Below, one piece after another: positions 35,905-64,000 of a stretch of 64,000 nucleotides of DNA. The translations under genes were made by a program, and so were the position numbers. How positions within the stretch are numbered: position 1 is the stretch's first letter; every line of letters starts with the position of its first letter. The notes beneath the pieces are model-generated. The model was not told where the DNA came from, made no database searches, and saw only the letters and a program-made list of their open reading frames with translations. This stretch comes from Acidovorax carolinensis (GTDB taxonomy: Bacteria > Pseudomonadota > Gammaproteobacteria > Burkholderiales > Burkholderiaceae_C). Where the stretch lies: NCBI RefSeq assembly GCF_002157145.1, contig NZ_CP021361.1, forward strand, positions 1,054,001 through 1,118,000, in the 5' to 3' direction.

Positions 35905-37435
35905 ATGGAAATGTTTGGAAAAGTCAGACGGATGTACAAGCGCGACAAGAGGTCGCTGCGTGAGATAGCCAAAGGCACGGGGCTATCGAGAAACACGATC
36001 CGTAAATGGGTGCGCGATGCAAAAGAGGGCGATGAGCCCGAGTACCGGCGCAAGGCGGCACCAGGCAAGCTCACGGCGTTTCACGCGGCGCTGGAGATGG
36101 CACTCAAGGCTGATGCATTGCGCACCAAGCAATACCGTCGCACAGCCCGGGCATTGTTTGTCGAAATCAAAAAGCAGGGCTACAGCGGCGGTTACAGCCG
36201 CGTCACCGACTTTGTGCGAGAGTGGCGAGGCAACGCTGGCAAAGCACCCCGCGCCTTCGTGCCTTTGAGCTTTGCGTTGGGTGAAGCGTTCCAGTTTGAC
36301 TGGAGCACCGAGGGTCTGCTGGTGGGAGGCATCTACTACAACAAGGTCCAACTCTCGCACATGAAACTGTGCGCCAGCAGGGGCTTCTGGCTGGTGGCCT
36401 ACCCCAGCCAGGGCCATGAAATGCTGTTTGATGCCCACACCCGCTCGTTTGCGGCGCTGGGAGGCATCCCTGGGCGGGGCATCTACGACAACATGAAGAC
36501 GGCTGTCGATAAAGTCCAAAAGGGCAAGCAGCGTGTGGTCAATGCCCGCTTCACGGCCATGTGTGCGCACTACCTGTTTGATGCCGACTTCTGCAATGTT
36601 GCCAGTGGTTGGGAGAAAGGCGTGGTCGAGAAGAACGTCCAAGACAGCCGCAGGCGCATCTGGCTGGATGCCCAAAAGCGCAAGTGGAGCTCTTTCGATG
36701 AACTCAATGCCTGGTTGGGCCAGCGCTGTCGCGATTGTTGGAGCGAACTGCGCCACCCTGAGTTTGGCCATTTCAGCGTGCTGGAAATGCTGGAACAGGA
36801 ACGCCTGGCGATGATGCTCATGCCCACCCCCTTTGACGGCTATGTGGAGAAGTCTGCCAAGGTCTCAAGCACCTGCCTGGTCAGTGTGGATCGCAACCGT
36901 TACTCGGTACCCTGTGAATGGGCCAACCACAGGGTCAGCACCCGGCTCTATCCCAGCCGAGTCTACGTCGTCGCTGGTGACTTGGTGGTGGCCAGCCACG
37001 AGCGGGCCTCAGACCGGGGTCATACCTGCTACGACTGGCAGCACTACATCGCGCTGGTGCAGCGTAAACCGGGAGCGCTGAGAAACGGTGCGCCGTGCCG
37101 ACATGCCTGAATCTCTGCAACGACTGCGCCTTGGGCTGATGAAACACGCCGGAGGTGACCGGAGCATGGCGCAGGTATTGGCCGCTGTGCCTACAGCCGG
37201 ATTGGAGGCCGTGTTGGTGGCAGTGGACTTGGTTGTTGAATCTGGCGCACTCAGTGCCGAGCATGTTCTCAACGTGTTGGCCCGCCTCAATGCCAAGCCT
37301 GTGCCAGATTCTGTTGAAACCACCCTGGCGCTTAAGGCACCACCGCTGGCCAATACCCAACGCTACGACAGTCTCAGAGAACTGGGCGCTGATGTACAGG
37401 TCGTACAGACCCAGGAGATCAGCCATGCGTTGTGA
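35905..37435 (+). pseudogene. istA: IstA transposase, frameshifted
   Basis: It starts MEMFGKVRRMYKRDKRSLRE and runs colinear with the other IstA in this window ([49 protein letters not shown]) up to [11 protein letters not shown], where the frame ends at 37110. The continuation (DMPESLQRLRLGLMKHAGGDR to EISHAL) is in another frame from about 37090. A single indel in GTGCGCCGTGCCG is the simplest explanation. The stop at 37435 overlaps istB by 11 bases. Confidence 0.85.
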
Positions 37436-48641: not shown

Positions 48642-49232
48642 TCAGGCTTTGCGCTTTCTGATCGATGAGGCTATTTGTTGCGCTTCTATGCGAGGTCCTC
48701 TACCGTCGACGGCAGTCCGTTTGGTTTCCGTGGCCTGCCTTTCTTCCTCCCGAAGATGGAGCTTGGTCGGAGATTCTTTGACTGCAGATTGCAACTCAAA
48801 CTGCGCGATTGCATCGGCGGCGGCGCTGCGCACTGTGCCCAACATAGTCTTCAGCAATATCTCCTGCGCTTGCGTGAGTCCGCCCAGCAGGATCGAGTTG
48901 GCCTCGCCTGCGGCACGCAACAGAGGCGTTTTCAACTTGAGTGCTTTATCGGTGAGGTAGATGCGCAGCTTGCGTCGGTCAAGCGTATCCCTCTGGAAGT
49001 GGACAAGGCCCTCTTTCTCCATAGAACGCAGCATTTCAAGCGTCGAAGGCTGCGTTGTGCCAAGTCGGTTCGCCAGTTCTCTCTGTGTCACGCCGTCCGC
49101 CTCAAAGAGTGCACGCAGCACGTACCAGCTACCACCACGAATACCGAGTTGGGCAATGCCAGGGTAGAGCAGCCGCTTGACGTGGCGAGCCGTGTCAGAG
49201 ATAAGAAAACCGAGGCTGCTGTCCAAGTTCAT
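48642..49232 (-). CDS. MarR-family regulator
   Basis: The 196-residue protein has the MarR winged HTH (LGIRGGSWYVLRALFEADGVTQRELANRLGTTQPSTLEMLRSMEKEGLVHFQRDTLDRRKLRIYLT). It is convergent with the upstream ALDH gene and divergent from the extradiol dioxygenase gene; the 260-base space between holds the TAGG-AA-CCTA repeat. MarR proteins bind short inverted repeats and release them on binding aromatic ligands, so this is the leading candidate for the shared operator. The last 30 residues are basic and unusual. Confidence 0.88.
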   Translation of the reverse strand: MNLDSSLGFLISDTARHVKRLLYPGIAQLGIRGGSWYVLRALFEADGVTQRELANRLGTTQPSTLEMLRSMEKEGLVHFQRDTLDRRKLRIYLTDKALKLKTPLLRAAGEANSILLGGLTQAQEILLKTMLGTVRSAAADAIAQFELQSAVKESPTKLHLREEERQATETKRTAVDGRGPRIEAQQIASSIRKRKA

Positions 49233-49366
49233 TGGAAAAACTCGTTCTGCGGGGGGGGCAACTTTGAGGGGATGCGTTTATTTGTCACTTGAGGGGCGTG
49301 CTAGTGAAGTAAGAAGCAGGATCATATGACGATTCTTTGCTCTCTAATCGCTAGGGAAAATACCAA

Positions 49367-49388
49367 TAGGAACCTAACTAATTTTAGG
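49367..49388. promoter_or_regulatory. TAGG-AA-CCTA operator (copy 3) upstream of the extradiol gene
   Basis: TAGGAACCTA (49367-49376) is the complement of the repeat at 38289-38298. As there, it is extended by a further pair, CCTAA (49373-49377) and TTAGG (49384-49388). It lies 117 bases before phnC and 135 bases before the divergent marR start, suited to control both. Confidence 0.6.
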
Positions 49389-49492
49389 CTCTAATAACAG
49401 AAATCATATTCGTAGCCGTGGCTGAGTTGCACATAAGTGTTCATATCTATGCTGCTGGGTCTGTATCTTTAATCTTTGTAAAAGGAGTTTTT

Positions 49493-50401
49493 ATGGCAAG
49501 CGTAACTGAACTGGGTTACTTGGGGATTTCCGTGAGCGATGCTGCTGCATGGAAGAACTACGCGACCGAGGTGATGGGTATGCAACTGGTCGACGAAGGT
49601 GAGGCTGATCGTTTCTATCTGCGCATGGACCTCTGGCATCACCGCATTGTGGTGCATACCGGTGGTGACGATGACCTTGCCTATGTCGGCTGGCGAGTAG
49701 CGGGTGCTCAAGAACTGGAGCAGATGGCTGCCAAATTGACGGCTGCAGGTATTGAGGTTCGTCGCGGCACCGAGGCAGAAGCTGCAGAGCGCCGTGTTCT
49801 GGGTCTGCTGAAGTTGCAGGATCCTGCTGGCAATGCGCACGAAATTTTTTACTCGCCACTGGTGGATGGGCACAAGCCATTCCACCCAGGACGTCCGATG
49901 TTTGGGGGCTTCAAAACGGGTGATCAGGGTGTTGGTCACATCATTCTGCGATCCGTAGACCCGGAGGCGACGATGCGCTTCTTTGCGGTGCTTGGGGTTA
50001 CTGGAAGCTCTGACTACCTTTTGAAGTTGACAGATGGCACCCCGGTTCGGATTCCTTTCTTGAAATGCAATAACCGTGAGCATTCCGTGGCCTTGATGTT
50101 CGGTCCGATGCCCAAGCGTGCGAATCACCTGATGGTTGAATACCAGGACATGCGGGACTTGGGGCAGACGTTGGACAAGGTGCATAAGCATGGTATCGAC
50201 ATTGCTGTGCAATTGGGCGTGCATAGCAATGACGGAGCGCTGAGTTTCTATGCGGCCAATCCGTCTGGTTGGTTGTGGGAGCCCGGTTGGAGTGGGGTAT
50301 GCGCACCGGCTCAGCAGGAGCACTTTCGCTGTGACGTTTTTGGGCATGACCTCGATAAAGCGCAATACGTCGGTGGCGTTAATTTTCGCAGCGAAGATTG
50401 A
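49493..50401 (+). CDS. phnC: VOC-family extradiol dioxygenase for polycyclic diols
   Basis: The 302-residue two-domain vicinal-oxygen-chelate protein has the type I extradiol iron ligands His149 (GVGHIIL), His212 (RANHLMVEY) and Glu263 (WLWEPGW), at almost the BphC/NahC spacing, plus catalytic His197 or His244 candidates. It would meta-cleave 3,4-dihydroxyphenanthrene or 1,2-dihydroxynaphthalene. ATG 49493 is behind AAAGGAGTTTTT. Confidence 0.93.
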   Translation: MASVTELGYLGISVSDAAAWKNYATEVMGMQLVDEGEADRFYLRMDLWHHRIVVHTGGDDDLAYVGWRVAGAQELEQMAAKLTAAGIEVRRGTEAEAAERRVLGLLKLQDPAGNAHEIFYSPLVDGHKPFHPGRPMFGGFKTGDQGVGHIILRSVDPEATMRFFAVLGVTGSSDYLLKLTDGTPVRIPFLKCNNREHSVALMFGPMPKRANHLMVEYQDMRDLGQTLDKVHKHGIDIAVQLGVHSNDGALSFYAANPSGWLWEPGWSGVCAPAQQEHFRCDVFGHDLDKAQYVGGVNFRSED

Positions 50402-50476: not shown

Positions 50477-52012
50477 ATGGGTGAAGAAATGAAGACTGAA
50501 TCGAAAAAACCGGATTCTGCTCGCAGTGAGCTTGCTATGAAGTACTTCCAGGCGGAGTATGGCCATTTCATCAATGGTGAATGGGTCGGTGGATCCAGCA
50601 GCGAAAAAATCGCGATGATTAACCCTGCCAATCTGGAGGTGCTGTCCTATATCCAGTCAGGCAACGCTGAGGATGTAAACCGTGCCGTGGAGGCCGCCAC
50701 ACAGGCTTTCCCGAAATGGTCTCGCAGCACACCCAGTGAGCGTCAGGCTGCGCTCTATGAAATGGCGCGTCGCCTGCGCGCACGGGCCAATGATTACGCC
50801 GCGATGTTGTCGCTCGACAATGGCAAGCCTATCATGGAGGCGCTGCATATCGATATCCCAGCCACGATTGGGCAGTTTGAGTTGTTTGCTGGTGCTGCAT
50901 TTGGTTTGCATGGGCAGACCATAGACGCGACACAAGGTGTGGCGATTATTCACCGCGAGCCGCTTGGTGTCGTGGCACAGATCATTCCCTGGAACGTGCC
51001 CCTTGTCATGATGGCGACAAAGATTGCGCCTGCTCTCGCTGCGGGCAATACCATTGTGCTGAAGCCGGCCGAGTCGGTCTGTTTGGCGGTCATGGAGTTC
51101 ATCCGTGAGATGGCTGACCTGCTGCCGCCAGGCGTGCTGAACGTCATTACCGGCTACGGGCCAAATGTCGGTGAAGCGCTTGTGACCCACCCGAATGTCC
51201 GCAAGGTAGCGTTCACCGGCTCACGCCCGACCGCGCAAAAACTGATGCAATATGCCTCCGTCAATGTGATTCCTCAAACGCTGGAGTTGGGTGGAAAATC
51301 GGCCAACATTATTTGCGCGGACGCTGACATGGATGCAGCGGCAGAGTCCGCAGCCATGAGCATCGTGGTGAACAAGGGCGAAATTTGCTTTGCCGCGACA
51401 CGCCACTTCGTCCATGAGTCAGTGATGGATGCATTTGTGGAGAAGGTTCAAAACATTCTTCGCAAGATTCGTGTTGGCGACCCTATGATCCCTTCGACGC
51501 AAATGGGGCCTCAGGCCTCCAGGATGCAGTTCGACAAGGTTCTTGGTTACCTCGATATCGGGCGCAATGAGGGTGCGACAACGGCGATGGGGGGTAAGCG
51601 CGCAACGGTGAGCGGATTTGAGCAAGGCTACTTTATTGAGCCGACCTTGTTTACTGATGTGCGCAACAAAATGCGCATCGCTCAAGAGGAGATTTTTGGG
51701 CCGGTCGGTGTGGTCATTCCATGGAAAGACGAGGCTCAAGTCATACGCGAGGCTAACGACACTGAATTTGGTTTGGCGGCTGGTCTCTGGACCAAAAACA
51801 TCACGCAAGCCCATCGCATGGCGCGCGAGATCGAAGCGGGGACCGTGTGGGTCAACCGCTACTTCAACACGATCCCCAATGTACCGTTCGGTGGCTACAA
51901 GCAAAGTGGTTTCGGTCGCGAATTTTCACTCGACGTTCTGAGCCACTACACCCAACTCAAGAGTGTGATCGTTTCCCTGCAAGAAGGACCCATTGGGCTG
52001 TTTGACCATTAA
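50477..52012 (+). CDS. phnF: Aldehyde dehydrogenase, probably for hydroxynaphthaldehyde/salicylaldehyde
   Basis: The 511-residue ALDH has IIPWNVPLVMMATKIAPALAAGNTIVLKPAE, VAFTGSRPTAQKLM, the Glu base in LELGGKSAN, the Cys nucleophile in KGEICFAATR, and EEIFGPVGVVIPW. It follows phnC by 75 bases with AAGGAG before the ATG. By elimination it should oxidise the aldehyde released by the upper-pathway hydratase-aldolase (1-hydroxy-2-naphthaldehyde from phenanthrene). Confidence 0.85.
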   Translation: MGEEMKTESKKPDSARSELAMKYFQAEYGHFINGEWVGGSSSEKIAMINPANLEVLSYIQSGNAEDVNRAVEAATQAFPKWSRSTPSERQAALYEMARRLRARANDYAAMLSLDNGKPIMEALHIDIPATIGQFELFAGAAFGLHGQTIDATQGVAIIHREPLGVVAQIIPWNVPLVMMATKIAPALAAGNTIVLKPAESVCLAVMEFIREMADLLPPGVLNVITGYGPNVGEALVTHPNVRKVAFTGSRPTAQKLMQYASVNVIPQTLELGGKSANIICADADMDAAAESAAMSIVVNKGEICFAATRHFVHESVMDAFVEKVQNILRKIRVGDPMIPSTQMGPQASRMQFDKVLGYLDIGRNEGATTAMGGKRATVSGFEQGYFIEPTLFTDVRNKMRIAQEEIFGPVGVVIPWKDEAQVIREANDTEFGLAAGLWTKNITQAHRMAREIEAGTVWVNRYFNTIPNVPFGGYKQSGFGREFSLDVLSHYTQLKSVIVSLQEGPIGLFDH

Positions 52013-52114
52013 AACCTTGGTTATTTTCATTTAGTAGGAAAAAGAATCGCTGCGTTACCGCTGTTTACAAGCAATGTGGCGATCATTCATAACCAAAGAA
52101 AGAGAGACGGCAAT

Positions 52115-53788
52115 ATGAAGTTCCTAAAATCACGGCGAAAGTACTTGATGCCGTCGGCCCACATTCGTGGCATTGCCGCATTGTGTGGTGGACTCTCCAT
52201 CGGAGCGACACCTGCCTTGGCTGTTGTGCTTGACACAGGAAATCCTGACTTGAATCTCCGCTGGGACAATACCATCAAGTACAGCGCTGCGCGGCGTCTT
52301 GACGAGCCATCATCTGTTCTGATCTCGAATCCAAACAACGACGACGGCGACCGAAATTTTGGCAAAGGACTCATTTCCAGTCGCTTTGACTTGCTGTCGG
52401 AATTGGACTTCGTCTATAAGAAGAACATGGGTTTTCGCATCAGTGCGGCTGCTTGGAACGATTCTGTTTATGGCCGTTCCAACGCCAACCCGGGTTTTCC
52501 CGGTGGCGCGTTCCCGAGCCAGACCTCGGTTCCCTACAACCAATTCACTGCCGGCACGCGAGATGTTCATGGCAGTGGCAGTGAGGTACTGGATGCTTTC
52601 GTCTTTGGTAAATTTGACCTGTTCGAGCGGAGCGCCTCGGTTCGTGCCGGTCGGCACTCGCTGCTTTGGGGCGAAAGCCTGTTTTTTGGTGCCAATGCCA
52701 TTGCCGGTGCCCAAATGCCGGTGGATGTGGTCAAGCTTGTTTCCGTACCCGGTACGCCTTTTAAGGAAGCGATTCGTCCCGTCCCTATGGTTTCGGGGCA
52801 AGTACAGATCACCCCAGATGTCTCGGTTGGGGCCTACATACAGGTAGCTTCATCCAGAAGTCGTCTGCCCGCTGCAGGTAGCTATTTCTCCAACACGGAT
52901 TACGCTGTCGATGGCGCTGAAAACATCTTTTTTGGGCCTGGTGCACCCAGCCCACGATTTTCCGATATGAAGGCCAAGGATTCTGGACAGGGGGGGGTGC
53001 AGCTGAAGGTGAAAGGTGGTGATATCGACTATGGTTTCTATCTGATTCAGTTTCACAACAAATTGCCACAAGTCGTGCCGAAGCTTGGAATGACTCCGGT
53101 CGGGCCGGCTCCGGTGGGCCATTACATCGCGTATCAAGAAAAAATTAAGGCTTTTGGTGCCAGTGCCAGCAAGACCTTTGGCGATTACAACGTTGCAGCT
53201 GAGCTGTCTTTTCGCGATAACCAAGACTTGGCGAGTACGCAGGGTTTCGACACGAGCGCGCTCGCGCCGGTCGCAAACAATAACTCAAGCAATCCAGCCT
53301 ATGCAGTCGGCCGCACGGCCCACTTGAATATCTCGGTGTTAGGCTCCGTGCCGCGTACTCCTCTCTGGGGAGAAGCTACGATTGCTGGCGAAATTGCTTG
53401 GAACCGTGTGCTGAAAATCACCAAAAACGCGACCGCCGCGGATCCAAATGCAACACGCGATGGTGTCGCGATGCGAGTCGTCTTTGAGCCGAAGTACCGG
53501 CAAGTCCTGCCAGGATTGGATCTAGGTGTGCCTATCGGCATCGGCTACGCGCCAAAAGGCTCCCGACCAATGGCAATGACACCCAACGCCTGGATCCCTG
53601 AAGGGGGAGGGGATATCAGCATAGGACTAAATGGGACTTACCTGGATTCTTGGAACTTCGGTTTGAACTACACCCACTATTACGGTACAGCCCGCACGTT
53701 TAACACGGGAGCTAACCAGGCGTTCGGCTGGGGTCAAACCCTTCGGGATCGAGATTTCATCTCGTTCACCGCTCGTTACACATTCTGA
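52115..53788 (+). CDS. DUF1302 outer-membrane protein
   Basis: The 557-residue protein has a signal peptide ending ATPALA, then VVLDTGNPDLNLRWDNTIKYSAARR, the DUF1302 start. Many amphipathic strands follow, with a final FISFTARYTF whose terminal Phe is the BAM-recognition residue of outer-membrane barrels. DUF1302 proteins commonly pair with DUF1329 proteins in clusters for hydrophobic substrates such as steroids. Here it probably helps PAHs cross the outer membrane. I start at MKFLKSRRKYLMPS (52115). Confidence 0.85.
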   Translation: MKFLKSRRKYLMPSAHIRGIAALCGGLSIGATPALAVVLDTGNPDLNLRWDNTIKYSAARRLDEPSSVLISNPNNDDGDRNFGKGLISSRFDLLSELDFVYKKNMGFRISAAAWNDSVYGRSNANPGFPGGAFPSQTSVPYNQFTAGTRDVHGSGSEVLDAFVFGKFDLFERSASVRAGRHSLLWGESLFFGANAIAGAQMPVDVVKLVSVPGTPFKEAIRPVPMVSGQVQITPDVSVGAYIQVASSRSRLPAAGSYFSNTDYAVDGAENIFFGPGAPSPRFSDMKAKDSGQGGVQLKVKGGDIDYGFYLIQFHNKLPQVVPKLGMTPVGPAPVGHYIAYQEKIKAFGASASKTFGDYNVAAELSFRDNQDLASTQGFDTSALAPVANNNSSNPAYAVGRTAHLNISVLGSVPRTPLWGEATIAGEIAWNRVLKITKNATAADPNATRDGVAMRVVFEPKYRQVLPGLDLGVPIGIGYAPKGSRPMAMTPNAWIPEGGGDISIGLNGTYLDSWNFGLNYTHYYGTARTFNTGANQAFGWGQTLRDRDFISFTARYTF

Positions 53789-53798
53789 TTGGAAAAAA

Positions 53799-55160
53799 AT
53801 GAAATTTATGATCAAACCCATTTCCACGATCATTGCTTACGCTTTTTTGGCTGGAGTAGCTCTTGCTGAGGTTTCAGCCGATGAAGCCGCTGCGCTGAAA
53901 TCCACTTTGACACCCATGGGTGCTGAAAAAGCTGGCAATAAAGACGGTTCGATTCCCGCATGGACTGGTGGCTACACCACACCGACGCCCGGCTACAAAA
54001 AAGGTGGCCGCCGTCCAGACCCTTTCGCTTCCGACAAGCCTTTGTACAGTATCACTGTAAAGAATATGGCGCAATATGCAGACAAATTGACGGATGGCAC
54101 AAAGGCGATGCTGCAGAAATACCCGGACACTTTCAGGGTTGATGTATATCCTTCAAAGCGCACTTATGTCGCGCCGCAATGGTTTTATGACAAGACGTTT
54201 GAAAACGCCACAAAGGTAAAGCTGTCGGGTCTCGATAATCCCTATGCTGTGGGGGCCTTGGGTGGCATTCCGTTCCCCATTCCGAAGAATGGTGCTGAGG
54301 TGATGGTGAACCATCAGCTTTCCTATAAGCTCGAACAAGTTTACGAAAGGGCGAAGAACTTCACTGTGAACAGCAGCGGTCAGGCTGTCTTGGTTTCACA
54401 TTATGAAAATTACTTTACTTTTCCTTACAACACCAAGGGTGTAAATGTTGAGGATGGTCAGTGGTGGTACAAAGTCCGTTCGACCAATATCGGTCCGGCC
54501 ATCCGAGCCGGTGAAGCGGTCATGCAGCACTTCAATGTCAATGAAGATAAAACACTGGGGTGGATTTACCTCACAGGGCAACGTCGCGTGCGCAAGCTGC
54601 CGAACGTCTGCTGTGATACGCAGCTCTCGTTTTCAGCTGGTATCCTCACTTTTGATGAGCTAACCGTGTTTGAAGGCGACATGAGCCGCTTTGACTGGAA
54701 ACTGGTCGGCAAGAAAGAAATACTGGTGCCTTACAACAGCAACCGCACAATGGTGCCAAGCAAGACTGCGGATGTGATCACGGGAGCCCACCTCAACCCT
54801 GATCATGTGCGTTGGGAATTGCATAGGGTTTGGGTTGTAGACGCCACATTGAAGCCAGGTAAGCGTCATGTGTCACCTAAAAGTCGTTACTACATTGATG
54901 AAGACAGTTGGTATGCCTTGCTTGGAGATCGCTGGGATGCGCAAGGAAAATTGGCGCGCACAACGTATCTCTTGCCCATTGTGGCGCCGGATGTACCCGC
55001 TTTCATACGCAGCAGTTTCGGTCTCAATGATCTGATAGGTGGCAACTCTTACTTGGGTAGCCTGTACAACGATGAGTCGGTGCAGATTCGCGTTGAGGAG
55101 AAACCATTCCCCGCATCAACCTATTCGCCAGATTCGATGGCTAGTGAAGGTATTCGGTAA
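53799..55160 (+). CDS. DUF1329 periplasmic/outer-membrane-associated protein
   Basis: The 453-residue protein has a signal peptide (MKFMIKPISTIIAYAFLAGV ending ALA) and the DUF1329 core: TLTPMGAEKAGNKDGSIPAWTGG, LGGIPFPIPKNGAEVMVNHQL, GQRRVRKLPNVCCDT. It follows the DUF1302 gene by 10 bases. The family is thought to adopt a lipoprotein-carrier-like (LolB-type) half barrel; a shuttle for hydrophobic molecules is a reasonable inference. Confidence 0.85.
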   Translation: MKFMIKPISTIIAYAFLAGVALAEVSADEAAALKSTLTPMGAEKAGNKDGSIPAWTGGYTTPTPGYKKGGRRPDPFASDKPLYSITVKNMAQYADKLTDGTKAMLQKYPDTFRVDVYPSKRTYVAPQWFYDKTFENATKVKLSGLDNPYAVGALGGIPFPIPKNGAEVMVNHQLSYKLEQVYERAKNFTVNSSGQAVLVSHYENYFTFPYNTKGVNVEDGQWWYKVRSTNIGPAIRAGEAVMQHFNVNEDKTLGWIYLTGQRRVRKLPNVCCDTQLSFSAGILTFDELTVFEGDMSRFDWKLVGKKEILVPYNSNRTMVPSKTADVITGAHLNPDHVRWELHRVWVVDATLKPGKRHVSPKSRYYIDEDSWYALLGDRWDAQGKLARTTYLLPIVAPDVPAFIRSSFGLNDLIGGNSYLGSLYNDESVQIRVEEKPFPASTYSPDSMASEGIR

Positions 55161-55295
55161 AGCTAAAAAGCTTAAGGGCGACGTGTTACATCTGGTGGAT
55201 CGACCTTCGGTTGGTCGCTCCACTGTTGGCAATGGTGAGCCCGTGAGGCTGATGGAATCCGGATTTGGTTGAGTTGTTTATGTGGTGGAATTCTG

Positions 55296-56384
55296 ATGAA
55301 AAAATTTAAGAAAGAGCGCTTTGACATCGGGCGACGCCGCGCCCTGTGCTTTGTAGCTACTGTGCCGCTGGTCAGCATGGAGGCGGTCTGGGCTAACCCC
55401 GTGCTTGATGCCTTGCGTCGTCCTGCGTTTGTAGCGCCGCACGTGAGGGGGGGCGTCTTGCTTGATGTTGCCAAGTCTGGCAAACGCATTGTCGCGGTCG
55501 GGGAGCGCGGTGTTGTTTTGTTCTCGGATGATGTTGGTGCCACATGGCAGCAGGCGAGTGTGCCAGTCAGTGTCACGCTGACCGCCGTCAACTTTGTAGA
55601 CGAAAAGTATGGTTGGGTCACAGGTCACTCAGGTGTTGTGCTCGCAACCTCAGACGGCGGTGGAACCTGGCGGCTTCAGCTGGAAGGAAAGAGAGCCGCG
55701 GATCTATGGCGTGCAGAAGCGTCGGCAGGATCAAAGAACGACGATGACAGCGACAAGCGTTTGCAGGAGGCTCAACGCTTGGTGTCGGACGGCCCTGATA
55801 AGCCCTTCCTGGACGTGCACTTTTTCGATCGAAAGCGAGGTTTTGTGATTGGGGCCTATGGGCTTATTTTTGCAACCGCAGACGGTGGTGAAACCTGGTC
55901 GCCCTGGATGGATCGCTTGGACAATCCGAAGGCCCTGCACTTTAACGCGCTTGCGGTGCAGGGACAGCGCATTCTGATAGTCGGCGAGCAAGGGTTGCTG
56001 TTGCAATCCGTCGATGGAGGAAAAACCTTCGTCCGACTGAGCTCCCCTTACCCGGGCAGCTGGTTCGCCGTGGCTGCGTTGCCCGACGGCAAGTGGTTGC
56101 TGGCTGGTCTGAAGGGCAATATCTATACGTATAGCCCTGCCGGTTTCAGCCAGTGCGAGGTGCCCATTCCTGTCACGATTGGCTGTCTCTCGCTGATGCA
56201 TGACGGTAGTGTGCTCGCCCTTAACCAGGCCGGGCAGGCATTGATCAGTCGTGATTCAGGGGGAAGATGGACGTCTGTTTCATGGCCGCCAGGCCCACCG
56301 TTGACTGCCGTTGTCGAACTTGATGGCAGTCGTCTGCTTGCCAGCAGCTTGCGTGGTGTTCGTGAACTTCCTTTTCCTAAGTGA
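55296..56384 (+). CDS. YCF48/BNR-repeat beta-propeller protein, exported
   Basis: The 362-residue protein starts MKKFKKERFDIGRRRALCFV with a hydrophobic stretch ending VWA; the GRRRALC segment may be a Tat or Sec signal. It contains repeated BNR/Asp-box units (VLFSDDVGATWQQ, VVLATSDGGGTWRL, LIFATADGGETWSPW, LLLQSVDGGKTFVRL), a seven-bladed propeller as in the photosystem II factor YCF48. Propellers of this kind neighbour RND permeases in many catabolic clusters. The next gene begins at its stop codon. Confidence 0.82.
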   Translation: MKKFKKERFDIGRRRALCFVATVPLVSMEAVWANPVLDALRRPAFVAPHVRGGVLLDVAKSGKRIVAVGERGVVLFSDDVGATWQQASVPVSVTLTAVNFVDEKYGWVTGHSGVVLATSDGGGTWRLQLEGKRAADLWRAEASAGSKNDDDSDKRLQEAQRLVSDGPDKPFLDVHFFDRKRGFVIGAYGLIFATADGGETWSPWMDRLDNPKALHFNALAVQGQRILIVGEQGLLLQSVDGGKTFVRLSSPYPGSWFAVAALPDGKWLLAGLKGNIYTYSPAGFSQCEVPIPVTIGCLSLMHDGSVLALNQAGQALISRDSGGRWTSVSWPPGPPLTAVVELDGSRLLASSLRGVRELPFPK

Positions 56385-56389
56385 CCCTC

Positions 56390-58783
56390 ATGTCAGTCGT
56401 TAACCAAACAGTCTCAAAGGATGAGCGAACACCTTTGACCGACTTCGATCCACGGTCAGGTTCAGCTATTGAACGGGCTCTTTTCAATCACCGCCAGCTG
56501 ATCCTCCTTTTCTGCGCGGTGCTGACGGTCGTGCTCGGCTGGAGTGCCAGTAATCTGCGTGTCAACGCGAGCTTTGAGAAGATCATCCCCAGGAGCCATC
56601 CCTACATCCAAAACTTCTTCGCTCATCGTCAAGAGCTGGGAGGTCTTGGCAACGCTGTGCGCATCGCCGTCGCCACAACAGGTGAGTCCATCTATGACCC
56701 AAACTATCTAAAGGTACTTCAGCAGTTAAGCGACGAGGCCTTTTTGCTCCCTGGCGTTGACAGGCGCAATATGAAGTCGCTGTGGACTCCGAATACGCGA
56801 TGGGTCGGCGTCACCGAGGAGGGCATGGATGGCGGTCCAGTCATCCCGGATGGCTACGACGGGTCGCCTACAAGCCTTGCCACGGTGCGTTTGAACATCG
56901 AGCGCAGCAACGAGATCGGTCAACTGGTCGCGTTGGATCAACGTTCTTCAATCGTCTATCTGCCCTTGTTGTCAAAAGACGCGAACGGTGTTCCGCTGGA
57001 TTACGCTGATGTTTCTGATGCGCTGGAGACGCTCAGGGTCAAATATCAGAGTGATGGGATCAGTATTCACATCACCGGATTCGCGAAGGTCATGGGTGAC
57101 CTGATTGAGGGTATTTGGCAGATGCTAGGATTCTTCGTCGCTGCCGTGCTCATCACGACGGCCATGCTCTATGCCTACACGCGTTGCGTGCGCAGTGCAG
57201 TGCTGGTTGTCAGTTGTTCGCTGGTTGCCGTGCTGTGGCAACTGGGGTTGATGCCCTTGTTGGGCTACGAGTTGGACCCCTACTCCGTGCTGGTTCCGTT
57301 CCTTGTCTTTGCGATCGGCATGAGTCATGGTGCTCAGAAAATGAATGGCATCATGCAGGATATAGGGCGTGGTGCGAATAGCTTGGTTGCTGCGCGCTAC
57401 ACTTTCAGGCGCCTTTTTCTTGCGGGACTGACTGCGCTGCTGTGCGATGCCGTTGGCTTCGGCGTCTTGATGGTGATCGATATTGAGGCGATCCGAGATC
57501 TGGCTTTCATTGCCAGCCTTGGCGTTGCAGTATTGGTCTTCACCAACCTGATACTGTTGCCGATACTGCTGAGTTATGTGGGCGTAAGTCCAGGAGCTGC
57601 TCAACTCAGTCTGACGGAAGAGTTGGCGAACCAGCGGAGCGGGGCACGACATCCGTTATGGAGACTGTTGGACTTGTTCACCCAGCGACGCTGGGCGGCA
57701 GGCGCCGTTGCGGTCTCACTGCTCGTTGGTACAGGTGGACTCGTGGTTGCGCAGCGCTTGAAGATCGGTGATTTGGAGTCTGGTGCACCTGAGTTGCGTG
57801 CCGACAGTCGCTATAACCGTGACAACACTTACATGACCGCACACTATGGAGCCAGCAGCGATGCCTTTGCAGTGATGGTCAAGACGCCAGACGGCGAGTG
57901 CAGCCAATATGACACCTTGATGAGGGTTGATGCGCTGGAGTGGAAAATGCGTGCTTTGCCGGGGGTGGAGGACACGAACTCTTTGGCATTACTGAGTCGG
58001 CGTGTGTTAGCAGGGTTGAATGAAGGCAGTACCAAGTGGTATGAGTTGATCAACAGCCAGTCGATGCTCAACACGATCACTTCCGGGGCACCCCGCGGCC
58101 TTTACAACGATACCTGCAGCTTGTTGACGCTGACGGCCTACCTGAAGGACCATAAAGCCGACACACTAACTTCCCTCGTCAACGAGGTGGAGGGCTTTGC
58201 CAAAGAAAACAACACTGAGCAAGTCCAGTTTCTTCTCGCCGCCGGCAATTCCGGCATTGATGCGGCGACGAACATTGTCGTCAGGGATGCGAACCGCGAG
58301 ATGCTGTTTTGGGTCTACGGCGCGGTGATCGTTCTGTGTGCTATCACCTTCCGCTCTTGGCGTGCGGTGCTGTGTGCTGTGTTGCCGCTGATTCTGACCT
58401 CGGTGCTGTGCGAGGCTTTGATGGTAGCGCTGAACATTGGTGTGAAAGTGGCTACATTGCCCGTGATCGCATTGGGGGTGGGCATCGGGGTGGACTATGC
58501 GCTCTACGTCATGAGCATTCTTCTGGCGAGATTGAAGGTTGGCGATAGCCTCTCCGAGGCTTACTACCAATCGTTGCTCTTCACGGGAAAGGTTGTACTC
58601 CTGACTGGTGTCACGCTTGCCTTGTGCGTTGTCACCTGGGTGGTTAGTCCCATCAAGTTTCAGGCTGATATGGGACTCTTGCTCGCCTTTATGTTTGTGG
58701 GCAACATGATCGGAGCACTGGTGTTGCTGCCCGCGCTCGCACATTTTTTATTAAAACCAATGGTTTTGAAGCCCATCAATTGA
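56390..58783 (+). CDS. RND/MMPL-family transporter
   Basis: The 797-residue inner-membrane protein has a helix at residues 25-45, a large periplasmic loop, helices 2-6 (FFVAAVLITTAMLYAYTRC to AVLVFTNLILLPILLSYVGV), another helix and loop, and a last set (WVYGAVIVLCAITF, GVGIGVDYALYVMSILLARL, LLAFMFVGNMIGALVLLPALAHFLL). The SMSH-like FAIGMSHGAQ and GIGVDYALY segments correspond to the proton-relay helices. It resembles the HpnN/MmpL exporters of lipids. With the three upstream genes it probably forms an envelope module for hydrophobic substrates. An in-frame GTG at 56381 is an alternative start. Confidence 0.88.
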   Translation: MSVVNQTVSKDERTPLTDFDPRSGSAIERALFNHRQLILLFCAVLTVVLGWSASNLRVNASFEKIIPRSHPYIQNFFAHRQELGGLGNAVRIAVATTGESIYDPNYLKVLQQLSDEAFLLPGVDRRNMKSLWTPNTRWVGVTEEGMDGGPVIPDGYDGSPTSLATVRLNIERSNEIGQLVALDQRSSIVYLPLLSKDANGVPLDYADVSDALETLRVKYQSDGISIHITGFAKVMGDLIEGIWQMLGFFVAAVLITTAMLYAYTRCVRSAVLVVSCSLVAVLWQLGLMPLLGYELDPYSVLVPFLVFAIGMSHGAQKMNGIMQDIGRGANSLVAARYTFRRLFLAGLTALLCDAVGFGVLMVIDIEAIRDLAFIASLGVAVLVFTNLILLPILLSYVGVSPGAAQLSLTEELANQRSGARHPLWRLLDLFTQRRWAAGAVAVSLLVGTGGLVVAQRLKIGDLESGAPELRADSRYNRDNTYMTAHYGASSDAFAVMVKTPDGECSQYDTLMRVDALEWKMRALPGVEDTNSLALLSRRVLAGLNEGSTKWYELINSQSMLNTITSGAPRGLYNDTCSLLTLTAYLKDHKADTLTSLVNEVEGFAKENNTEQVQFLLAAGNSGIDAATNIVVRDANREMLFWVYGAVIVLCAITFRSWRAVLCAVLPLILTSVLCEALMVALNIGVKVATLPVIALGVGIGVDYALYVMSILLARLKVGDSLSEAYYQSLLFTGKVVLLTGVTLALCVVTWVVSPIKFQADMGLLLAFMFVGNMIGALVLLPALAHFLLKPMVLKPIN

Positions 58784-58873
58784 CGTAAGGCGTTGAAGTT
58801 TAACGAGGCGGGCTTGGAAGTGTCCGCCTCACGTCAAGCCAAATCCCGGATGGTTCATTGAGTTGGGGTAAAA

Positions 58874-58890
58874 CGACCGTCAGTCGGTCG
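58874..58890. promoter_or_regulatory. Palindrome CGACCG-N5-CGGTCG upstream of phnE
   Basis: Perfect 6-bp arms around TCAGT lie about 105 bases before the phnE start, in a 212-base gap with no gene. The form resembles TetR-family operators. Whether the TetR protein at 43629 binds it is untested. Confidence 0.4.
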
Positions 58891-58995
58891 GGCAAGATGA
58901 GTATGTGATGATTGATGTCTTTGGGCTTTCGCAAGATGCCTGAGAATATTATTTGTGGCGGTTTTTAGAATTTTCTTAAATACAAAGGATAAGTT

Positions 58996-59994
58996 ATGGG
59001 TAAGTCAGGACTGTTGAATGCATCGGATATTCATGGAGTATGGTCAATTCTTCCGACACCATCCAAACCGGATGCGAGTGACTGGCGTGCGACTAACACC
59101 GTTGATCTGGATGAGACTGCCCGCGCCGTTGAAGGCCTTATCGCGGCTGGCGCGAACGGGATTCTGAGCATGGGTACTTTGGGTGAGTGTGAATCGCTAA
59201 CCTGGGAGGAAAAGAAAGTCTTCATGCAAACCATCGTGGAGACCGCGAGAGGAAGGGTTCCAGTGTTCGTTGGCACCACAACGCTTAATACCCGCGACAC
59301 GATCGAGCAGACAAGGTACGCCCACTCCATTGGGGCCGACGGAACAATGTTGGGAATACCAATGTGGTGCAATCCCTGCGTTGATATGGCTGTTCAGTAC
59401 TACAAAGATGTCGCCGAAGCTGTTCCAGAGATGAATATCGCTATCTACGCGAATACCGAGGCTTTCAAATTTGATTTTCCCCGCGCGTTCTGGGCTCGGG
59501 TTTCAGAGATTCGGCAAGTCGTTGCAGCGAAATATATCGGTATCGAGTTCCTGCTGCAGGATCTACATCTGACCAAGCACCGCATGAAGCTGCTGCCGCT
59601 CGACTACCAATACTATGCTGCGGCACGTATGGATGACTTCGTTGATGCCTTCTGGTCCAGCGGTACCGTGTGCGGGCCATTGGTTTCGACGACGCTTCGC
59701 GACAAGGTCATCGCAGCTCGGCGAACCAAAGACTGGACCGATGCCCACGCATTTCAGGGTCGACTTGTGAAAACAGCTGCGCCATTTCCCGAAGATAGCT
59801 TCAAGACCTTTTCTATTTACAACGTTGCGCTGGAAAAAGGCCGAATCGATGCTGCAGGCTGGATGAACGCCGGCCCCGTTCGCCCACCTTATAACGACAT
59901 CTGCCCAGCCAGCTATCTTGACTCCTGGAAAGCCTCAGGGCAACGGTGGGCCGAATTGCACAAGCAACTTGAAACGGAATCTTCGGGGAAATAG
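58996..59994 (+). CDS. phnE: Upper-pathway hydratase-aldolase (NahE/PhdG-like)
   Basis: The 332-residue DHDPS-superfamily enzyme starts MGKSGLLNASDIHGVWSILP, then TPSKPDASDW, and carries ILSMGTLGECESLTWEE, TTTLNTRDTIEQT, AIYANTEAF (Tyr) and Schiff-base Lys179 in VVAAKYIGI. The C-terminal AAGWMNAGPVRPPYNDICPASYL is as in trans-o-hydroxybenzylidenepyruvate hydratase-aldolase. It would release pyruvate and an aromatic aldehyde. It resembles NahE more closely than the paralogue at 45095, supporting the division of labour. Confidence 0.9.
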   Translation: MGKSGLLNASDIHGVWSILPTPSKPDASDWRATNTVDLDETARAVEGLIAAGANGILSMGTLGECESLTWEEKKVFMQTIVETARGRVPVFVGTTTLNTRDTIEQTRYAHSIGADGTMLGIPMWCNPCVDMAVQYYKDVAEAVPEMNIAIYANTEAFKFDFPRAFWARVSEIRQVVAAKYIGIEFLLQDLHLTKHRMKLLPLDYQYYAAARMDDFVDAFWSSGTVCGPLVSTTLRDKVIAARRTKDWTDAHAFQGRLVKTAAPFPEDSFKTFSIYNVALEKGRIDAAGWMNAGPVRPPYNDICPASYLDSWKASGQRWAELHKQLETESSGK

Positions 59995-60009
59995 TCGAAT
60001 GCTTGAGAG

Positions 60010-60063
60010 AAAGGGCAAAGACGATCGACTTTCACTTCGATTTCATGAGTCCTTTCAGCCACC
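60010..60063 (+). pseudogene. Remnant of a second DsbA-like isomerase gene
   Basis: In one frame the segment reads RAKTIDFHFDFMSPFSHQA, the N-terminal signature of DsbA-family 2-hydroxychromene-2-carboxylate isomerases (compare FYFDFVSPFSYLA in the intact gene at 42850). It then ends without the rest. There is no start codon in place. Confidence 0.5.
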
Positions 60064-60211
60064 AGGCTAACTGTAACGGCGGTTTATGTCTATGTCGGCC
60101 ATGAATCCTTCAGGTTCGAGTGTCTTCGGTCTTTCCGGCTTCGAACAGCACCCGGGTCACCCCTTTTTAATGGGCTGCAGCGGCGAGTCCTACCAAACAC
60201 GTCAACCACAA

Positions 60212-61027
60212 ATGAATCTCGAATCTCTGCTAATCCTTGAACTTGCCGCACTGGGCATCGGTACCGGTTTTCTTGCGGGCTTGCTGGGCATTGGTGGCGG
60301 TATGACGCTGGTGCCGTTCATCACCATCATCTTGTCAAGCCGCGGTGTGTCGCCCGATTTGGCGGTGAAAATGGCCATCGCAACCTCCATGGCCATCATC
60401 ATTTTTACATCCCTTTCGAGCGTTCGGGCCCACAATAAACGGGGTGCCGTGCGCTGGGACATCGTCAAACGGCTGGCTCCCGGCATTGTCGTAGGTAGCC
60501 TCATTGGCAGCTTGGGGGTGTTCGCGCTGCTCAAAGGCGCTTACCTGGCCATTTTCTTCGGCCTGTTCGTGATTTTTTCGGCAACACAGATGTTGCTTGA
60601 CAAAAAAACCAAACCCAGACGCCAAATGCCTGGTACGGCGGGTCAGTTGGCGGCGGGCGGAGCTATTGGCTTTATTTCGGGCTTGGTTGGTGTAGGCGGC
60701 GGCACTATCAGCGTGCCCTTCATGACTCGGTGCAACGTGGCGATTCACAGCGCCGTGGCCACTTCTGCAGCGCTTGGAATTCCGATTGCCGTTACAAACG
60801 TGCTGGGCTACGTGATCGGCGGGCGAAACGTGCAGGACTTGCCGGTGGGCTCGTTCGGCTACATCTGGTTGCCGGCGTTGGGCATAATTGCCGTGTGCAG
60901 CTTCCTCGCCGCGCCGCTGGGCGCCCGGGTGGTACACAGCATTCCCGTAGACAAGCTCAAATTGGTGTTTGCCGGCAGTTTTTACTTACTCGCGGCCTAT
61001 ATGCTCTACAAGGGTCTCAGCACCTGA
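60212..61027 (+). CDS. TauE/SafE-family membrane permease
   Basis: The 271-residue protein has about eight hydrophobic helices and the duplicated GIGGGMTLVPFI and GVGGGTISVPFM motifs that define TauE/SafE (DUF81) anion permeases. It resembles exporters or importers of sulfite and organosulfonates; substrate unknown. I place the start at ATG 60212 (MNLESLLILELAALGIG). The frame extends upstream to 60086, but that part carries no family features. It follows the isomerase remnant and may be native sequence. Confidence 0.85.
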   Translation: MNLESLLILELAALGIGTGFLAGLLGIGGGMTLVPFITIILSSRGVSPDLAVKMAIATSMAIIIFTSLSSVRAHNKRGAVRWDIVKRLAPGIVVGSLIGSLGVFALLKGAYLAIFFGLFVIFSATQMLLDKKTKPRRQMPGTAGQLAAGGAIGFISGLVGVGGGTISVPFMTRCNVAIHSAVATSAALGIPIAVTNVLGYVIGGRNVQDLPVGSFGYIWLPALGIIAVCSFLAAPLGARVVHSIPVDKLKLVFAGSFYLLAAYMLYKGLST

Positions 61028-61045
61028 GTGAGGCTGAGCCTCCTA

Positions 61046-62241
61046 GTACATTGACACGAAAATAACGGCACATGATTACACTACGAATGTCGCCATTCGG
61101 CATAACGAGGAGTGGTCATGCGTCAGACGGAGCTGAACTTGAGCGAGGAGGATCGCTCGACGATCGAAGCCATTCGCAGCAAAGAGGTGCATCAGGCGCG
61201 CGAGGTCAATCGAGCCCATGTGCTGTCATGCCTGGACCGCGACATTCCCGAATCTGAGATCATGGCAGTGCTTGGCATTGGCCGCACCGCCGTGTGGCGT
61301 GCTCGCGCCGCCTACTTGCAAGGCGGGGTGGAGCTGGCGGTGTTCGACGTGCAGCGCTCAGGACGCCCGCGCCAATACGACACCAACGCCGAGGCGAGTG
61401 TGATCGCCTTGGCCTGCTCAGCCCCGCCCAAGGGACGCCAGCGCTGGACCATGGTCGAGCTCGAACGGTGCCGCCCGCCAGGAGCCTGGCATGCAATCCG
61501 TGAGCCGGGAAACCGTTCGACGCATGCTCAAAAAAACTATTTCTCTTGTTCCTGGCACCGGGTAATGTGGTGCATTGGGGCGTTGACCGAGGAGTACCGT
61601 GCTCGGATGTATGTCCCGCTCGAACTGTACGCGCGACCAATATCCAAAGCCGAGCCGGTCATTTGCATCGACGAGAAAAGCCTGCAACTTATCGCCCATA
61701 GCCGACCTCCATTGGCCATGGCGGCGAGCAGCCCAACCAAGCATGGCTACGAGTACGTACGCAACGGTACCACCAATCTGTTCGTGGCTGTCGAGCCCAA
61801 GGCGGGACAGCGAATCGTATCTGTCACCGAGCGTCGAGGAAAGGTTGACTTCGTCGCCTTCATCAAAGAATTGCTCACTGGCGTATACGCCAAGGCACGA
61901 CGAATTCACTTGGTGCTCGATAACCTGAACACGCACTTCAGAAAGTGCTTTGACGACGTGCTGGGCAGTCGTGCGGCCGCCAAGCTCCTGCATCGGGTGG
62001 AGTTTCACTACACCCCAAAGCACGCGAGCTGGCTGAACATGGCAGAAATCGAGATTGGCATTCTCAGTCGCCAATGCCTGGATCGGCGCATTGCCAATCG
62101 TGAATTACTCGAATCCGAGGTTGCTGCCTGGCAGCAAGCCCGCAACGAGAAAGAGCGAACTATCGAGTGGCACTTTACTCGACAGGATGCGGACAAAAAG
62201 ATGGGTCGAAATTATGTTTCTCAACTTTCGTGTTGATGTAC
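61046..62241. mobile_element. IS630-family insertion sequence
   Basis: The ends GTACATTGACACGAAA and, read inward from the right, GTACATCAACACGAAA are near-identical inverted repeats. TA dinucleotides flank both (61044-61045 and 62242-62243), the target duplication of IS630/Tc1-like elements. Confidence 0.9.
61118..62236 (+). pseudogene. IS630-family transposase with an out-of-frame middle
   Basis: The frame begins MRQTELNLSEEDRSTIEAIR and has a HTH (EIMAVLGIGRTAVWRARAAYLQGG). The DDE core follows: VICIDEKSLQLIAHSRPP, HLVLDNLNTHFRKCF, HYTPKHASWLNMAEIEIGIL. The frame is open throughout, but between about 61465 and 61540 it reads nonsense (CRPPGAWHAIREPG). The conserved sequence there (EPGMQSVSRETVRRMLKK) lies in another frame, and a second shift occurs near the A-run at 61530. 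Two compensating indels, or sequencing errors, are implied. Confidence 0.78.
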
Positions 62242-62261
62242 TAGAGCGGCTAATATTTCAA

Positions 62262-62470
62262 TGCAAGACCTGACCCCAACACCCGGATAAGTTCTAAATG
62301 GACCGCAAAACAGGACCCAAGCATTTCGGCATGAAAGCGCCTATTGGCGTGGATAAGGACTCAGGGCTGGTACACGCTTTGACAACGACGGCGGCCAACG
62401 GCAGCGACATCAGCCAGACACCGGAGTTGATGCGCGGACAAGTATGCGCTGTCTGGTCAAATGCGGGCTA
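62262..62470 (+). pseudogene. IS5-family transposase fragment
   Basis: GPKHFGMKAPIGVDKDSGLVHAL, ANGSDISQTPELMRGQ and SNAGYVSRK correspond to the central IS5-family catalytic region (GMKxHIGVDxxSGLVH... DAGY). Neither end is present. It stops where the chemoreceptor reading frame (opposite strand) ends. Confidence 0.7.
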
Positions 62471-64000
62471 CGTTAGCCGGAAGGTGCCACTCAGTGCATT
62501 CATACGCGAGGCCTGTTCCGACAGCAGACCCGCCGCTGCGGCACTCTGCTCCACCAGCGCGACATTTTGCTGAGTCAGTGTTTCCACCTGTTCGAGTGCC
62601 AAACTCACATCGCGGATATCGTCGTTCTGCTGCCGCGTCGCATCGGTGATCTGACTGATCACGACAGCCACACGCTGTACCGAACCGACGATGTCCGCCA
62701 TCGTCGCGCCAGCGCTATTCACTAATTTGCTGCCAGACTCGACCTTCTCGACACTGGCGCCGATCAGTGCATTGATCTCTTTGGCTGCGACGGCCGAACG
62801 GTGCGCCAACGAGCGCACTTCAGCGGCCACTACCGCAAAGCCTCTGCCTTGCTCGCCAGCCCGTGCCGCCTCGACGGCTGCGTTCAATGCCAGCAGGTTG
62901 GTCTGGAAGGCGATGCTGTCGATGACGCCAGTAATGTTGGCGATCTTGCGGCTTGAATCGGCGATGGCCTCCATGTTACCGACCACTTGCTGAATGACTG
63001 CGCCACCACGCTGCGCAGCCTGCGCTGCGGCGCTCGCAAGGTCGTCTGCGGACAAGGCTGCTTGCTCGCTTTGTAACACTGCGCTTGTCAACTGCTGCAT
63101 TGAAGCCGTGGCTTGTTGCAGTCGTGTGGCGGTCAGCTCGGCTCGGTGCGATAGGTCGGAATTGCCTCCTGCCATCTCACTACTAGCCAAGTGGATGCTG
63201 TCGGCCGTCATCTGGATGTCACTGACGATGCTCCGCAGACCCCGCTGCATGTCAGTCAAGGCATCGAGCAAGGCACCAACCTCGTCGCGCCGGGTGGTCA
63301 CCATCGATGCCGATAGGTCGCCTTGTGCTACTGCGCGTGCGAGTACTACCGCCTGGGCCAGTGGTTGGGCAATACTGCGTGAAATGAGTCCCGCTGCCAG
63401 CAAGCCGACTACCAGCGCGGCCCCTACCGCCACAGCCATGACGGTCCGCACCTGCCGAGCCGTGGTCTTCGATTCGAGGGCCGCTTCATGCATCGTGGAA
63501 TTTACGCTTTGCTTGAGCTTGTCGAGCGTGAGGAACCACGCGTCCTGTGACGGACGGAGTTGGTTGATCGTGAACTGGGCCAACTGCTCACGACTGATAC
63601 CGGCCGTGGCTTTCAAGGAGATTTGGTTCATCACTGTCAGGGCCTCGCTGCTTGTCTCATTCAGCGTCTTGATCTGCGTTGCAAGTCCCATAGTCTGGTC
63701 GCCTTCACGGATCGACGCATCGAGTTCCTTGACGCGTTCCTCGTAAATTTTGGATGATTGCTCCAAACGCTTTACTTCGTAGGCAATATCCTCAGGATCG
63801 TCGTTCAGCGACATGGAGGTCACTGACAAGGCCATGTCCGATACTGCCTTCTCCATCGTGCTCACGATTTCCGCACGTCGGTAGTCGAGGTCAACGACAT
63901 TCTGTGTGCGGGCCGCCAGCGCGCCCGTATAGAACCAGCCGAGCATGCCGATGACGGCCAACAGCAACAGCACCAGTGCGAAGCCGATATGGAGGCGCAT
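62468..64000 (-). CDS. Methyl-accepting chemotaxis protein (5' end may lie outside)
   Basis: The 510 visible residues include an N-terminal membrane helix ([20 protein letters not shown]), a four-helix-bundle ligand domain (4HB_MCP type, residues 25-190), a second helix ([20 protein letters not shown]), a HAMP domain ([20 protein letters not shown]) and the signalling hairpin with [40 protein letters not shown]. It may sense aromatic compounds, given the neighbours. Translation from the ATG at 64000-63998 is possible, but such proteins often have a few more residues upstream. The stop lies exactly at the IS5 scrap, so the native C-terminus may have been altered. Confidence 0.9.

Follow-up and report, generated by a model that had tools for sequence, protein, structure and literature searches.

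The crossing of the Gram-negative envelope by neutral, poorly soluble hydrocarbons poses the same question for terpenes, Tween 20, benzene, and phenanthrene. Among the closest described systems is AmeABCD of Castellaniella defragrans 65Phen, a tetrapartite HAE3 system in a monoterpene island, for which its authors propose export (PMC6394551; the published work is cited throughout for the accessible parts of each source). Here we analyze a cassette of this kind in 64,000 nucleotides of Acidovorax carolinensis (NCBI RefSeq assembly GCF_002157145.1, contig NZ_CP021361.1, positions 1,054,001 to 1,118,000; this whole stretch is called the window). Genes for DUF1302 (A), DUF1329 (B), YCF48-like (C), and MMPL/RND (D) proteins lie there within a cluster for catabolism of polycyclic aromatic hydrocarbons (PAHs). 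With a probability of roughly 0.55, we read this quartet as a single functional cassette of the AmeABCD/PhnL type, borne as cargo on a phn island, probably co-transcribed with ring-cleavage genes, and most likely delivering substrate inward.

The Castellaniella mutant lacking ameABCD grows poorly on monoterpene hydrocarbons and normally on acetate and perillyl alcohol. Given limonene together with acetate it grows normally up to 5 mM limonene, above which growth drops. After growth on limonene it accumulates slightly more Nile Red in the presence of carbonyl cyanide m-chlorophenylhydrazone (CCCP), and its real-time Nile Red efflux is almost identical to that of the wild type (PMC6394551). In Delftia acidovorans Cs1-4, the nanopods contain DUF1302 and DUF1329 proteins whose genes adjoin in a phenanthrene cluster (PMC3110197). 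This phn cluster has about 50% GC and lies on a genomic island (PMC4572682), and its gene phnL (DelCs14_1758) encodes a YCF48 protein (PMC3958437). Disruption of phnL lengthens the lag on phenanthrene (48 h vs. 6 h) and slows growth, while growth on pyruvate is normal; extracellular protein falls by 96%, nanopods become sparse and short, some vesicles and nanopods are still formed, and colored metabolites pile up outside the cells (PMC3958437). The published accounts conflict at one point: PMC13101534 describes a DUF1329 gene, DelCs14_1722, as deleted with a growth defect, whereas the gene disrupted in PMC3958437 is phnL, DelCs14_1758.

In Pseudomonas putida, the pairs PP_0765/PP_0766 and PP_2018/PP_2019 share a growth phenotype on Tween 20; the predicted contact between PP_2019 and PP_2018 is strong, and those of PP_0766 with PP_0765 and with PP_2019 are weak (Foldy, PMC10866462). 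A Zoogloea phenol-hydroxylase cluster contains a DUF1302-DUF1329 pair (PMC7012976), and a different route, TonB-dependent uptake of phenanthrene, has been proposed in Sphingobium (PMC13273656). In the accessible parts of this literature, uptake of 14C-phenanthrene is reported for an S-layer mutant only, and our literature search found no paper that pairs phnAc with DUF1302. An earlier note on this DNA, made from its letters, had called the function of these families largely uncharacterized; this was too strong, since mutants of the same cassette types, and of the P. putida parts, have been described in print. Two precedents had been overlooked: AmeABCD and, in Delftia, the phn cluster that holds phnL.

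Linkage of the four genes

The four-gene envelope module that the earlier note had described, on one strand with short gaps inside a PAH cluster, is borne out. All four open reading frames (ORFs) are intact, lie on the forward strand with boundaries as assigned previously, fall into the expected Pfam families (Table 1), and are contiguous in the order A-B-C-D, with gaps of 10 bp (A-B), 135 bp (B-C), and -4 bp (C-D, an overlap). By gene content this is a set of the AmeABCD type (DUF1302, DUF1329, COG4447/YCF48, and an HAE3-type RND), with D below the HAE3 cut-off: NCBIfam HAE3 (TIGR00921) is its best match (E = 4.4e-44) at 150.7 bits, where the curated cut-off stands at 351.9. Gene B matches PF17131 (LolA_like) at E = 1.1e-5, under the cut-off of that model. 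The N termini of A, B, and C look exported when judged by eye, that of A being signal-peptide-like. A search of the own genome gave one DUF1302 and one DUF1329 match, so the cell has no second source of these two parts.

We compared the linkage of the quartet in three sets of loci. The first comprises 80 genome loci, the best 80 of at least 580 confirmed matches found through exact peptide patterns; the second, 14 plasmid loci from 46 records other than that of Massilia sp. WG5 (see below); and the third, an order-wide set of 20 of the 33 matches outside the own genome, mostly the better-scoring ones, representing 20 of the 28 other genomes that matched among 300 searched. In the order-wide set, genes were sought within stretches of 15-18.5 kb.

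At 76 of the 80 genome loci (77 of 81 with WG5), A, B, and C stand upstream of D in one order and on one strand. Gaps of at most 300 bp separate A from B and C from D in all 77 cases, and B from C in 72 of the 77. The four exceptions among the 80 loci (L023, L053, L059, and L060) retain C-D. Record annotation places all four genes at 13 of the 14 plasmid loci, and our own profiles recover the complete quartet in 11 of the 14 plasmid stretches. The profiles fail on A and B of the distant locus L107, whose record names DUF1302 and DUF1329 proteins. At L108, six catabolic genes lie between A-B and C-D, and A, which is beyond the fetched stretch, was placed by the DUF1302 plasmid search; Comamonas L102 retains D plus a short C-like frame and no more, with transposases around them. 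All four genes occur at 18 of the 20 order-wide loci (13 as ABCD, four as BADC, and one with C-D and B-A on opposite strands), and the other two hold only C-D within the stretch. On plasmids, too, the order varies: CD-AB at L101 and L107, BA-CD at L104, and BA-DC at L105 and L106. That membership is retained despite reshuffled order speaks well for the four acting together. Pairwise distances among A, B, C, and D also correlate across 78 cassettes (r = 0.87-0.93, with none of 500 permutations as high for each of the six pairs), although shared host descent would likewise raise such correlations.

The four genes form a genuine unit, and their co-location is far beyond chance, judged from the linkage counts alone. 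A chance neighborhood is ruled out by these counts (76/80, 13/14, and 18/20), and the gene-neighborhood check that had been suggested for the module comes out in its favor. A quickly built tree of 68 D proteins pairs the window with WG5 (support 100) within a group of 19 rows (support 95), with long-branch warnings for the distant rows. This group takes in Pseudomonas, Burkholderiales, and other cassettes; the D protein of the window clusters there with those of further ABCD cassettes.

The genes that adjoin the cassette are varied. We surveyed 38 of the 80 genome loci, taking two ORFs per side and excluding those of at least 900 aa (149 picked, two long ones dropped, 147 scanned). Raw counts without a control set, for the first 25 of 71 families, give LysR 16, MFS 12, FAD_binding_3 9, glyoxalase/extradiol type 8, FAA hydrolase 7, Peptidase_S9 7, and cupins 5, among the matches listed. 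The plasmid cassettes have homogentisate-dioxygenase, Rieske, FAA-hydrolase, beta-oxidation, and other catabolic genes as neighbors. None of the 80 genome loci (best 80 of at least 580) has a phn neighborhood; together with the varied catabolic neighbors, this makes PAH clusters one of several hosts of the cassette. We also compared two plasmid lists, 40 of the 75 records that encode a related dioxygenase alpha subunit and 40 of the 42 that match DUF1302: among the matches listed, only the plasmid of Massilia sp. WG5 has both. A general requirement of the cassette in PAH catabolism is ruled out by this single shared plasmid in the rows listed; the cassette is an accessory to PAH catabolism.

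Genomic setting and transcription

The wider cluster includes a ferredoxin-reductase-type ORF, a short-chain dehydrogenase/reductase, both subunits of a ring-hydroxylating dioxygenase, a DSBA-like isomerase, and a glutathione S-transferase, and profile scans add a second aldolase, a cupin, and a second aldehyde dehydrogenase. We take this gene set (38403-60076) to be a phenanthrene set with a phthalate branch. The whole block is collinear with part of a plasmid of Massilia sp. WG5, presumably a phenanthrene degrader, and the encoded proteins are 82% (A), 91% (B), 78% (C), and 89% (D) identical between the two. The GC content is 53.9% in the block and 62.3% in positions 1-30000 of the window. 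On the best explanation, the quartet rides as cargo in a phn (PAH) island spread by horizontal transfer. Close relatives of the dioxygenase alpha subunit are rare, with matches at E <=1e-80 in three of 399 genomes of the order, two of them outside the own genome and at 41-42% identity.

Table 1. Coordinates of the quartet, its probable transcription unit, and surrounding features in the window
Feature	Position	Strand	Basis
Gene A, DUF1302 outer-membrane beta-barrel, 557 aa, AmeA type	52115..53788	+	Pfam DUF1302, E 5.4e-119
Gene B, DUF1329 periplasmic carrier, LolA/LolB type, 453 aa, AmeB type	53799..55160	+	PF07044, E 1.5e-115
Gene C, YCF48-like exported beta-propeller, 362 aa, AmeC/PhnL type	55296..56384	+	PSII_BNR/YCF48 PF14870, E 4.5e-28 to 5.2e-28
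Gene D, MMPL/RND permease, HAE3-like, 800 aa, AmeD type	56381..58783	+	MMPL PF03176, E 9.4e-15
phnC-like extradiol dioxygenase, leading the probable unit	49493..50401	+	BphC/glyoxalase domains
Aldehyde dehydrogenase, 5' of quartet	50477..52012	+	PF00171 (Aldedh), E 7.1e-168
DHDPS-family hydratase-aldolase, 3' of quartet	58996..59994	+	PF00701, E 2.2e-21
MarR gene, divergent from extradiol dioxygenase	48642-49232	-	MarR domain
Divergent intergenic region, 260 bp, MarR gene/extradiol dioxygenase	49233..49492	.	blocks conserved with WG5
PAH island block collinear with Massilia sp. WG5 plasmid NZ_CP012641.2	38403..60076	+	blastn, four consecutive pieces, 82.0-86.8% DNA identity
Stem-loop between B and C	55161-55295		left arm identical in WG5
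Stretch at D-aldolase junction, 220 bp	58766-58985		absent from WG5
Universal stress protein with hemerythrin domain	34527-35546
Transposase ORF, Mu-transpos_C_2 type	35827-37110
TauE/SafE permease	60086-61027
Transposase ORF, IS630 type	61112-62236
Methyl-accepting chemotaxis protein	62468-64000	-

The quartet probably belongs to a single unit that runs from the extradiol dioxygenase through the aldehyde dehydrogenase, A, B, C, and D to the aldolase. Along the forward strand the successive gaps are 75, 102, 10, 135, -4, and 212 bp, and at the same joints of WG5 they are 63, 93, 11, 121, 5, and 3 bp; the D-aldolase joint is the sole loose one in the window (212 bp vs. 3 bp). The two flanking genes of the quartet had been named phnF and phnE: their assignment as Aldedh and DHDPS-family aldolase genes is confirmed, while the names themselves are provisional and go back to family membership. 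Relatives of the aldolase gene at the DNA level were found on sphingomonad plasmids. The extradiol dioxygenase matches TIGR03213 at E = 2.2e-104, with 348.9 bits, below the cut-off of 366.45, and its start is the ATG after AAAAGGAG, the same in the window and WG5.

The divergent region between the MarR gene and the extradiol dioxygenase is probably the promoter/operator of the unit. A weak kind of scan found no sigma-70-like promoter in this region and no promoter-like site on the forward strand at 50835-62600, and no inverted repeat was found at 49200-49460 of the window. The stem-loop between B and C has a right arm that differs in WG5 and still pairs there; the stability of the stem-loop is not above that of shuffled sequences in the window (z = -0.09) and weakly above in WG5 (z = -1.65). 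It could adjust how much B is made relative to C-D. The stretch missing from WG5 at the D-aldolase junction reflects either an insertion here or a deletion there, and no second copy of it was found in the own genome.

The surroundings of the island hold further genes. Transposase ORFs of two types stand on its two sides. The TauE/SafE permease gene is just beyond the block shared with WG5, where a TauE gene lies elsewhere on the plasmid. A universal stress protein gene precedes the island, and universal stress proteins are also encoded near the cassette in Azoarcus L100 and in the cluster of the benzene degrader ORM2a (PMC13101534). The gene of a methyl-accepting chemotaxis protein (MCP) lies just past the island; MCP genes occur within the fetched stretch at four of the 14 annotated plasmid cassette loci (L098, L099, L101, and L108), a hint of a link between the cassette and chemotaxis.

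Folds, proposed mechanism, and likely direction of transfer

Structures were modeled for A and D, each as a single chain. The model of D (pLDDT 81.9) has two transmembrane halves and two extracytoplasmic domains, and in a fold search it matches MmpL, HpnN, NPC1, Ptch, and AcrB, placing it in the MmpL/HpnN/NPC1 fold. That of A is an OprD/AlgE-like barrel, a likeness of fold only and not membership in OprD/Occ by sequence, DUF1302 being the sole Pfam match of A at E <=0.001. Searches for solved relatives gave nothing useful for DUF1302 by sequence (an antibody chain at E = 0.84 only), nothing for it by profile, and nothing for DUF1329 by single-sequence search. With a profile, gene B matches 4z48, 3bk5, and 9tp6 over part of the protein (E = 7.4e-5 to 6.4e-4). 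Gene C matches solved Ycf48 chains by phmmer (best E = 7.9e-19).

Gene D carries S-H-x-x-Q in transmembrane helix (TM) 4 (S315, H316, and Q319) and D-Y in TM10 (D705 and Y706). H316 lies inside model helix 304-329 and D705 inside 692-719, which are TM4 and TM10 by position. All five residues are invariant in 82 of 82 D sequences, a count partly built in by the overlap of the search pattern QKMNGIMQ with the TM4 motif. Independently of the search patterns, the five are also invariant in 16 of 16 D sequences, down to 26% identity, and a regular-expression check, likewise independent of the peptide patterns, finds both motifs at 20 of 20 order-wide D loci. In MmpL3-type pumps, TM4 and TM10 each hold an Asp-Tyr pair; D lacks the acid in TM4, where S-H-x-x-Q stands. 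This suggests that the RND lineage of D uses a one-acid proton relay with histidine as partner, and D may work like the MmpL/HpnN/NPC1 RNDs yet is a distinct lineage. The accessible text of the AmeABCD paper (PMC6394551) contains no remark on SHxxQ or a one-acid relay that we could find. The invariant His and Asp-Tyr pair offers a direct handle for asking whether protons drive the RND.

A plausible division of labor would have A as an outer-membrane channel, B as a LolA/LolB-type carrier shuttling a hydrophobic molecule across the periplasm, and C as a beta-propeller that docks on D. D itself would be a proton-driven RND of the MmpL/NPC1/HpnN fold that transfers the molecule between the carrier and the inner membrane, D705-Y706 providing the acidic relay and H316 pairing with it. 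The net task would most likely be to deliver to the inner membrane either the growth substrate, which dissolves poorly, or a hydrophobic product formed early on, much as NPC2 hands over to NPC1. A tripartite HAE1 pump of the AcrAB-TolC type was rejected: the genes scanned at 38621-62236 include neither an MFP nor an OMF/TolC-like gene.

Transfer of a hydrophobic substrate across the envelope is well supported by linkage, by folds, and by published mutants of the same cassette kind. To this extent the trans-envelope route first put forward for the module holds; PAH as the cargo, and the direction of transfer, are what we infer. We give about even odds to import, or delivery to the inner membrane, and rank it ahead of export and of vesicle formation. 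It is modestly favored over export because mutants of three published systems (phnL, ameABCD, and P. putida on Tween 20) grow poorly on a hydrophobic carbon source, soluble substrates are unaffected where reported (phnL and ameABCD), the cassette genes travel with catabolic genes, and metabolites are found outside the phnL mutant, where the loss of a metabolite exporter predicts otherwise. That the quartet is specifically a dedicated PAH importer, with an NPC1-like inward RND, a LolA/LolB-type carrier loaded from an OprD/AlgE-like barrel, and a one-acid relay (TM10 D-Y plus TM4 His), seems unlikely.

D belongs to the RND superfamily, whose pumps usually run outward, and the ameABCD mutant grows less above 5 mM limonene, accumulates slightly more Nile Red with CCCP, and is weak on monoterpene hydrocarbons while normal on acetate and perillyl alcohol (PMC6394551). 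These points would fit a four-part efflux system that pulls PAH or toxic intermediates from the inner membrane and out through the barrel, as proposed for AmeABCD. We regard such export as possible though somewhat doubtful: real-time Nile Red efflux hardly differs between mutant and wild type (PMC6394551), a growth loss on a sole carbon source that acetate relieves would fit an uptake defect too, the metabolites of the phnL mutant build up outside (PMC3958437), and the cluster genes scanned include no partner resembling TolC or AcrA.

The presence of DUF1302 and DUF1329 proteins in Delftia nanopods (PMC3110197) and the 96% fall in extracellular protein with sparse, short nanopods after phnL disruption (PMC3958437) could mean that the cassette mainly drives the formation of outer-membrane vesicles or nanopods on phenanthrene, with substrate handling secondary. 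This is improbable, considering that homologous cassettes adjoin many different catabolic genes, that the P. putida genes matter for Tween 20 with no vesicle role reported in the accessible part of that source (PMC10866462), and that the phnL mutant retains some vesicles and nanopods (PMC3958437). Finally, the 212-bp gap before the aldolase and the transposase genes flanking the island would suit an accidental passenger, inserted into the operon by chance and expressed separately or not at all. The four intact frames, and the WG5 plasmid, where the same arrangement persists at 82-87% DNA identity with a gap of 3 bp, make this a very remote prospect.

Comparison with described systems

As a complete cassette in one probable phn transcription unit, within a genome that has no second DUF1302 or DUF1329 match, this locus is one in which single deletions should be clean to interpret. 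If the quartet is indeed a dedicated PAH importer of the kind outlined above, it would represent an unrecognized class of trans-envelope uptake for neutral hydrocarbons, common to terpene-, surfactant-, and benzene-degrading bacteria.

The described relatives differ in arrangement and substrate. P. putida has a DUF1302, a DUF1329, a periplasmic protein (which we take as the C type), and a multidrug-efflux-type transporter, likened by description, which lie in two separate places by their locus numbers and serve growth on Tween 20 (PMC10866462). The ORM2a "nanopod" cluster comprises a DUF1329 protein, a YCF48-related protein, an MMPL transporter, and a porin-like protein, expressed together; it comes from a methanogenic benzene-degrading culture and also has stress-type proteins, and its authors leave the direction open (PMC13101534). 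From the solved RND lipid transporters NPC1/NCR1, HpnN, and MmpL3, D differs by S-H-x-x-Q in TM4, where MmpL3-type pumps carry an acid.

There remain the two systems with which we began. AmeABCD has the same four protein types (605/451/316/787 aa vs. 557/453/362/800 aa here, likened by description), with ameABC directly 5' of ameD, an HAE3-type RND, and a place in a hydrocarbon catabolic island; its substrates are monoterpenes, as against the PAH cluster here (PMC6394551). In Delftia, the DUF1302 (DelCs14_1756), DUF1329 (DelCs14_1757), and phnL (DelCs14_1758) genes are consecutive (PMC3110197, PMC3958437), and by the gene content of 38403-60076 the same three types stand side by side in a phenanthrene cluster in the window. 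The module inside a PAH operon was therefore already known, and the window is a new and complete example of it.

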